Assembly (NCBI GenBank): GCA_017857195.1
Contig: JAFMDM010000007.1
Location: 1-32,482 of the forward strand
Source of the DNA: Methanobacteriota archaeon
GTDB taxonomy: Archaea; Thermoproteota; Thermoprotei_A; Sulfolobales; Sulfolobaceae
Reading direction: 5' to 3'
DNA length: 32,482 bases
In this document: piece by piece, positions 6,682-8,484 of the stretch
Position numbering within the stretch: position 1 is the stretch's first letter
How the letters are laid out: every line of letters starts with the position of its first letter
Notes under the pieces: generated by a model
What the model saw: the letters and a program-made list of their open reading frames with translations, nothing else
Database searches by the model: none
What the model was told of the DNA's origin: nothing
Program-made: the position numbers and the translations under genes

Positions 6682-6690
6682 TTTTATATA
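6682..6690 (+). promoter_or_regulatory. TATA box for aRF1
   Basis: TTTTATATA is centred about 35 bp before ATG 6721, predicting a transcript start near 6712 and a leader of about 9 nt. The leader would begin around CGATCAGGG and holds no strong Shine-Dalgarno. Confidence 0.5.
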
Positions 6691-6720
6691 TGATATGAGA
6701 GATTATTATCTCGATCAGGG

Positions 6721-7816
6721 ATGAGTCTTTGAGAAGTATACTATAAGTAAGGAGGAGCTCAAGGCCCTGTTAAGGGACCTGAAGAAGTGGAAGGCACCTG
6801 CTACTGTATTGCTTTCCCTATATATTCCTCCAGGGAGGCCAATAGCAGACGTTACAAACACCCTAAGGCAGGAGCTTTCCATCTCTCAAAACATAAAGCT
6901 AAAGAGAACCAGAGAAGCAGTGGAAATGGCCATATCCACGGCCATAGACAGATTAAGCAAGATATCAAAGGTACCTGATAATGGGCTAGTTATATTTAGC
7001 GGTAAGAACTTCGACACAGAGGAGTTCAAATGTATAGTCTTTTCTCCCCCTGAGAAAACCAGTGTGTACTTCTACAGGACAGATAAGGAATTCCACACTG
7101 AATTCCTGGAGGATCTAATAGAGGAAAACGACGTCTACGGCTTACTGATCATAGAGAGAGATGAAGCCACCATAGGTATGTTAAGGGGAAGCAGACTAGA
7201 AGTCCTGGAAGAGCTACAGGGTTACATACCAGGGAAGCATACTAAGGGAGGGCAGAGTCAGAGACGTGAGGCTAGAATCATAGAGGAGCTCGTTCACGAA
7301 TTCCATAAGGAGGTAGGAGAGAGGGCCAACAGCTATTTCCTACCATATCTTGAGAACAAGAAACTGAAGGGGATATTGGTAGGTGGTCCTGGATTTGCCA
7401 AGCAGGACTTCGTGGAGGGTGATTATATAGATTATAGACTAAAGAAGATGATAATAGAACCCCTTCTGGACATCAGTTACCAGGGTGAAAACGGACTGAG
7501 GGAGATGGTTATGAGGTCTGGTGACGCTCTAAAGGGACAGAAATTGGTTGAGGTGGAGAAAGCCTTAGAGGAGATAAAGTATCATCTGGCCAAATCTGAC
7601 GATCTAGTGGTGTATGGACGCAAGGAGATAGAGGCAGCGCTCGATTCAGGGGCTGTGGAGTTCCTTATAATTTACGATGATGACGCAAATCGGGATTTAA
7701 TCCAGAAGGCAGAGAGTTCCAAGGCAAATCTTTACGTGGTGGGCAGTGAACTTCCAGAGGCTGAGTGGATAAGAAAGACATTCAGTGGAGCCATAGGGAA
7801 GTTAAGATATAAGTGA
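6721..7816 (+). CDS. prf1: peptide chain release factor aRF1, needing a +1 shift at codon 3/4
   Basis: This is the archaeal class I release factor, which reads all three stop codons and triggers peptidyl-tRNA hydrolysis. The track ORF begins at an internal TTG (6809) and lacks the first helix. The homologous N-terminus continues upstream in the same frame ([26 protein letters not shown]) but meets TGA at 6722 before any ATG, GTG or TTG. ATG 6721 opens the other frame as ATG AGT CTT TGA. A +1 step on CTT-T joins M-S-L to E-K-Y and gives 364 residues, about the usual length. Motifs in that numbering are NIKL (57-60, where NIKS is canonical), YRTDKEF (118-124) and KHTKGGQSQ with GGQ at 176-178. 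Either programmed frameshifting, a sequence error or a non-standard start explains the 5' end. Confidence 0.9.
6727..6732 (+). promoter_or_regulatory. candidate recoding site CTT TGA in aRF1
   Basis: Codon 3 is CTT and codon 4 is TGA. Peptidyl-tRNA-Leu could re-pair from CUU to UUU, placing GAG in the A site and entering the conserved frame. The same CUU UGA core mediates autoregulatory +1 frameshifting in bacterial prfB. An AGGG lies 6 nt before CTT, whereas the stimulatory Shine-Dalgarno in prfB is closer. An extra T in the CTTT run, from error or mutation, would give the same picture. Confidence 0.5.
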
Positions 7817-7817
7817 G

Positions 7818-8441
7818 CTAAAGGGTCCCCCTCCTCCTCATCTCGGCCACTATATCCGTGATGGGAATGGGAGGGGTTACGTTGTAACTCTCCTCGAAGA
7901 TTTTTGTTAGTTCCTTCGGCTCTTGAACACCTATCTCGTCTATTATTTTCTTCACTAGATTTATCTCATCCTCCCAGTAGTTCCATGGGTACATGAACCA
8001 GCTCCAGTCCTTGACCTCCTGTGCGTAATAGGTGGGCTTGAATTTGGCTGAATTAGCTAAGTACTGCAGCGTTGCAGTCTTCACCTCTCCTACGTTGAAG
8101 TTTTCTCTCACGAAATCACGGGATAGGACGATGCTATCGCCAGTGTCACAAATGTCGTCTACGATCATGACCTTTGCCCCCTTCAGGTCTAACCTAAATG
8201 GATATTTCACTCTCGCCTCAGGGTTCCTGGAGGCAGTTACTACCCAATGTTCTACCTTAAGAGAAAGAATGTCCACCACTCCTAGGTGATCTGCAAGTAA
8301 TCTGCTAGGCACCAGACCTCCCCTTGCTATTGCCACTATTACATCCGGCCAGTATCCATCTTCCTTTATTTTGTCGCTGAGCGTTTTACTGAGTTCAACT
8401 ATCTGATCCCAGCTGACCACCTTGACGGGTATCTTGGGCAC
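7818..8441 (-). CDS. purine (hypoxanthine/xanthine/guanine-type) phosphoribosyltransferase
   Basis: This is a type I phosphoribosyltransferase of 207 residues, probably in purine base salvage. The PRPP-binding motif is [14 protein letters not shown] near residue 97; the early [17 protein letters not shown] loop is typical of Gpt/XPRT-like enzymes. A Trp/Tyr-rich segment ([14 protein letters not shown]) follows the core. I chose GTG 8441 (MPKIPVKVV) because AAGGTGTGGG lies at Shine-Dalgarno distance and the extra residues of the TTG 8480 form look unlike the family. It is the last gene of the leftward inositol-phosphate synthase cluster, 43 bp after the Cys-rich gene. The exact base specificity is not readable. 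Confidence 0.85.
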
Positions 8442-8484
8442 TATAATTACCCACACCTTCTCAATGAAGGGGTTAATCAATCTT

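Follow-up and report, generated by a model that had tools for sequence, protein, structure and literature searches.

In Sulfolobaceae and related archaea, programmed +1 frameshifting is very probably needed for the synthesis of the release factor aRF1, and probably serves negative feedback by the level of aRF1 itself, as judged from a comparative sequence analysis. The analysis started from an aRF1 gene in a 32,482-nt stretch of DNA (the window; contig JAFMDM010000007.1 of assembly GCA_017857195.1) assigned to the Sulfolobaceae. The zero frame of this gene opens with ATG, AGT and CTT, and an in-frame TGA follows as codon 4 (read from sequence; coordinates in Table 1). The aRF1 frame (GAG AAG TAT and onwards from 6731) begins one base after the first base of this TGA. 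Upstream it is closed by a TGA at 6722–6724, and its first ATG, GTG or TTG is the TTG at 6809. An earlier sequence-only reading had described the same opening, displaced frame, upstream stop and late TTG, all of which were confirmed. Its placement of GAG directly behind the stop was correct for the +1 frame, of which GAG is the first codon, but not for the zero frame, in which the codon after TGA is GAA.

The product scored 406.5 bits against TIGR03676 (aRF1_eRF1; cut-off 234.7) and matched the crystallised archaeal factor PDB 3agk end to end (E = 5e-132). Since the score exceeded the cut-off and the PDB matches were archaeal and eukaryotic class-I factors, the product is not a bacterial RF2. 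The GGQ motif, present in the translation, is the only feature by which aRF1 and RF2 are related, and it is established that aRF1 reads all stop codons (PMC3521657).

Conservation of the site within the Sulfolobaceae

All 31 available Sulfolobaceae genomes, representing 11 genera and including many finished or single-contig assemblies, were compared. Every one of them carried ATG-AGT-CTT-T(GA/AG), extra T included. The stop was TGA in 29 genomes and TAG in G001 and G005, which belong to two lineages; the stop therefore survives despite changed bases. In none of the 31 genomes did the region from the preceding stop to the body of aRF1 contain an in-frame start.

The site also stood out in the alignment of site plus gene (1,167 columns). 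The 11-nt stretch GATGAGTCTTT was invariant in the 31 genes, the next longest invariant run being 3 nt. Among 116 columns with an invariant amino acid, the TTT of the site was the sole degenerate codon with a single spelling, although phenylalanine was spelled TTT (46%) and TTC (54%) at similar frequency over the genes compared. In codons 1–27 after the site, pairwise differences at codon positions 1, 2 and 3 were 0.19, 0.15 and 0.56, respectively, compared with 0.23, 0.11 and 0.59 in the rest of the gene. This codon rhythm of the aRF1 frame lies 5' of the first internal start of the window gene, and the stretch is therefore translated in the aRF1 frame. The first internal start after TTT fell anywhere from codon 10 to codon 44, depending on the genome, so that no internal start can be a conserved initiation site. 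Termination followed by reinitiation was rejected because a conserved downstream start was lacking.

Upstream of the site, an AT-rich block was found at a similar distance in the Sulfolobaceae relatives. The spacing of the TATA-box-like element in the window predicts a transcript start at approximately 6713, near GATNAGGG, and the leader would therefore consist of just GATCAGGG. Within this leader, the columns G, A, T, A, G, G and G were 90–100% identical in the 31 genes.

Table 1. Positions of the shift site and associated features in the window.
Feature	Position	Strand	Evidence
ATG, zero-frame start codon	6721..6723	+	invariant 31/31 in Sulfolobaceae
AGT, second codon	6724..6726	+	invariant in Sulfolobaceae (31 genes)
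CTT, slip codon (P site), proposed +1 re-pairing on TTT 6728–6730	6727..6729	+	invariant 31/31; NTT in 84/84 scored sites
TGA, zero-frame stop; T6730 is the base proposed to be skipped	6730..6732	+	stop in 84/84 scored sites
aRF1 coding frame, 361 codons + stop	6731..7816	+	TIGR03676 and PDB 3agk matches
TTG, first in-frame start codon after the site	6809..6811	+	position not conserved among relatives
TATA-box-like TTTATATA	6683..6690	+	sequence; spacing predicts transcript start near 6713
GATCAGGG, probable very short 5' leader	6713..6720	+	GAT[C/T/A]AGGG in most of Sulfolobaceae

Distribution over the order

Diverged forms of the site were found in further families of the same order, here designated by the family codes of the genome collection searched (f2 to f12). 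They occurred in f2, f4, f7, f8, f10, f11 (one of two) and f12, giving 84 scored sites in eight families with the Sulfolobaceae included; G189 and G190 were left out of this number. The range of the site thus proved to span most of the order and not one genus. The pattern NTT_TRA was present at all 84 sites. The slip codon was CTT in 34, ATT in 38, TTT in 10 and GTT in 2, and the zero-frame stop was TAG in 53, TGA in 30 and TAA in 1, with TAA and TGA occurring alongside TAG within f7. The base 3' of the stop was C (56), T (25), G (2) or A (1), the window having TGA-G.

An ATG was located two codons 5' of the slip codon in 57 of the 84 sites, and across the families of this type the sole substitution of the start in place was ATG to GTG. 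Typical arrangements were GAGGG-ATG-[A/G]GT-[T/C]TT-TAG-C in f4, GAGGG-ATG-[C/T]CT-[A/G]TT-TAG/TAA/TGA in f7, GAGGG-ATG-AGT-ATT-TAG in f10 and GGTG-NNN-NNN-ATT-TAG in f8. Families f8 and f2 mostly used GTG as the zero-frame start, three codons 5' of the slip codon. A normal in-frame aRF1 start was seen in f3, f5, f6 and f9, in the remaining families sampled from the class, and in a sample of 20 genomes taken elsewhere in the phylum. On an aRF1 tree built without the site, in which deep branches were weak, presence and absence required six changes; it is plausible that the site arose early in the order and was later lost in places.

A pattern search for ATGAGTCTTTRA over the class gave matches elsewhere too, as did a reversed control, and only the position at aRF1 therefore counts. 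No confirmed relatives were obtained in a contig scan with the aRF1 protein, and plasmid records searched with aRF1 yielded only haloarchaeal aRF1. In-frame stops had been flagged in the aRF1 genes of G233, G262, G301 and G399; in G233 and G399, the two that were read, these were the genes' own terminal stops.

Proposed mechanism, exceptions and alternatives

In the proposed mechanism, the ribosome would start at the ATG at 6721, read Met-Ser-Leu and reach the UGA at codon 4. With aRF1 plentiful, termination at UGA would release the tripeptide. With aRF1 scarce, the ribosome would wait and the peptidyl-tRNA on CUU could slip one base to UUU, after which GAG would be the next codon and full-length aRF1 (MSL plus 361 residues, 364 in total) would be made. 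Two features of the 84 sites agree with such a slip. The slip codon varies at its first base and has U at the second and third, and U is also the base that follows in every case; a tRNA that moves to UUU can thus form two or three base pairs there. The stop is kept while its identity is free, as expected because the single archaeal aRF1 reads TGA, TAG and TAA. The pattern fits the feedback logic of prfB, the bacterial RF2 gene, without its restriction to UGA. The sequence-only reading had proposed a +1 shift at CTT-TGA serving autoregulation; the conserved shift gained comparative support, and the autoregulatory step is one that the pattern fits. The evidence from sequence is strong, and autoregulation of aRF1 is probable; slippage, its rate, its dependence on the aRF1 level and the negative feedback are predictions from sequence.

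Several observations weigh against this reading. A stimulator of the prfB type was not demonstrated in the Sulfolobaceae: AGGG occurs approximately 7 nt upstream of the slip codon, and pairs with the 16S tail GATCACCTCA no better than background. In f4, f7, f10 and f8, a Shine-Dalgarno-like GAGGG or GGTGA was located 5–7 nt before the slip codon, with a pairing energy mostly stronger than the background mean (-5.4) and, except for part of f8, weaker than the 5% quantile (-9.3). Re-pairing on UUU is poor for the slip codons AUU and GUU. A canonical zero-frame start was lacking nearby at five of the 84 sites (one in f2, four in f8). Two of these, G049 (f2, L133) and G197 (f8, L161), keep ATT-TAG. 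The other three, G196 (L094), G198 (L177) and G200 (L095), form an f8 subclade with GTG in the aRF1 frame in place of the zero-frame start (e.g. GGGGGT GTG TCT AGA TTT AGT), apparently a natural loss of the frameshift and a useful contrast. The two f8 genomes left out of the scoring have one T fewer. In G190 (L158), which has TAT-TAG rather than ATT-TAG, ATT-AGC lies in the aRF1 frame with a Shine-Dalgarno-like GGTGA upstream; this gene may start at AUU and need no frameshift, or it may shift at TAT-TAG. Its sister G189 (L184) also lacks the usual motif. In addition, roughly half of the genes in f4 and f7 had an aRF1 frame that stayed open further upstream, and in these a distant in-frame start is formally possible; the argument from the missing start is therefore strict only for the Sulfolobaceae and part of the other families. 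A tRNA-Leu(GAG) was not found by pattern or with ARAGORN in the genome of the window, a result that is uninformative owing to introns and the incomplete assembly.

Among alternative explanations, an indel from sequencing or assembly, or an inactivating mutation, had been the main concern of the sequence-only reading. The genome of the window is indeed an 88% complete assembly in 193 contigs. The reading had named relatives with CTTGAG, without the extra T, as a finding that would refute its proposal; the same extra base was present in all 31 family genomes, finished ones included, and this explanation is refuted by the relatives, with practically no probability left to it. Transcriptional slippage, adding or removing a base in part of the mRNAs, is equally close to negligible: the Sulfolobaceae site has only three consecutive T, known tracts for such slippage are much longer, and the stop codon would have no role. 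Translation that begins directly in the aRF1 frame, at UUU, GUC or another non-canonical codon, with ATG AGT CTT TGA as a mere leader, would account for the invariant UUU and for the GGTGA found in f8 and f2 at the usual initiation distance, 5–6 nt before ATT or TTT. It leaves unexplained why AGT is invariant, why ATG is likewise kept and gives way at that place to nothing but GTG, and why a stop is retained in 84 of 84 sites; UUU and GUC are not known to serve as start codons, and we consider direct initiation very improbable.

For the AUU-type families, a start-stop version of the same control can be considered, in which initiation occurs at AUU with UAG directly next and the initiator tRNA slips +1. 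The spacing GGTGA-N5/6-ATT is largely kept in f8, f2 and f12, even without a GTG or ATG start (G197 and G049). However, 18 of the 22 scored f8 sites retain a zero-frame GTG or ATG, and this version is inapplicable to the Sulfolobaceae with their CUU slip codon and invariant ATG; it is a minority possibility. A broader scenario is similarly tentative: an old autoregulatory +1 trait of the order, independent of prfB and with the stop freed from UGA, may have been reduced in f8 and f2 to an AUU start followed by a stop, with slipping of the initiator tRNA. Lastly, the frameshift could be constitutive, indispensable for expression and occurring at a set ratio and at a rate independent of aRF1. This appears unlikely, somewhat more so than the start-stop version, given that the bacterial prfB and viral parallels are read as feedback (PMC12421855, PMC3521657).

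Relation to known systems and neighbouring features

The best reading is that the aRF1 site works like that of prfB and is not homologous to it. In bacterial prfB, the +1 shift takes place at the consensus CTT_TGA_C with an upstream Shine-Dalgarno-type stimulator (PMC3711429; PMC12421855). Both systems concern a class-I release factor gene with the site near the 5' end, a +1 shift that opens the main frame, CUU in the P site and an A-site stop that the factor itself reads. Unlike in prfB, the aRF1 shift site is at codons 3–4, the slip codons include AUU, UUU and GUU, and a prfB-like stimulator is not shown in the Sulfolobaceae. The stop is UGA, UAG or UAA, in contrast to the almost fixed stop of prfB, and the window has G rather than the consensus C after it.

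Another close parallel is viral. Mimivirus R726 and Megavirus mg280 encode class-I factors of the eRF1/aRF1 type, the sites being CUU UAG C and CUU UAA C; the +1 frameshift of R726 was shown in Escherichia coli, and such control was stated to be absent from eukaryotic and archaeal homologues (PMC3521657). The archaeal site shares with these genes the homologous factor type, the +1 shift at CUU-U-stop and a stop not limited to UGA. It differs in being cellular and spread over an order, while the viral genes have a second, readthrough stop. A 2021 review describes that of the Saccharolobus solfataricus alpha-L-fucosidase as the only programmed frameshift reported in archaea (PMC8211752). This gene likewise belongs to the Sulfolobaceae, but it is a metabolic gene with a -1 shift at an A-rich slippery sequence, and in other Sulfolobales it is complete and requires no shift.

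No earlier report of frameshifting in an archaeal release factor gene was found in the open-access literature. The sequence-only reading had likewise named no archaeal case; the viral genes provide a precedent for a CUU-stop frameshift in a factor of this type. The GeneTack survey missed prfB shifts less than 50 nt from the start codon (PMC3711429), a limit that would account for a shift at codon 3 having been overlooked. If true, the aRF1 site would be without precedent in archaea both as a +1 programmed frameshift in a cellular gene and as a release-factor feedback of this kind, contradicting the published statement that class-I factors of archaea and eukaryotes have no such control. Unrelated families of release factors would have reached one solution independently, and the archaeal stop, being free to vary, would serve as a natural test for the reasons behind the retention of UGA in bacterial prfB. 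Annotations of the aRF1 N-terminus may be wrong in Sulfolobus; since this is a model genus with genetics, the claim is testable at once.

Downstream, a phosphoribosyltransferase-like open reading frame on the other strand (7818–8480) converges on aRF1, and its end is one base away from the aRF1 stop codon (7814–7820). A tRNA gene at 70–158 on the minus strand of the window matched Rfam RF00005 with 56 bits and was not called by ARAGORN. Its sequence suggests an inserted stretch, an unusual intron, near the anticodon arm, and the gene perhaps encodes tRNA-Glu(CTC).
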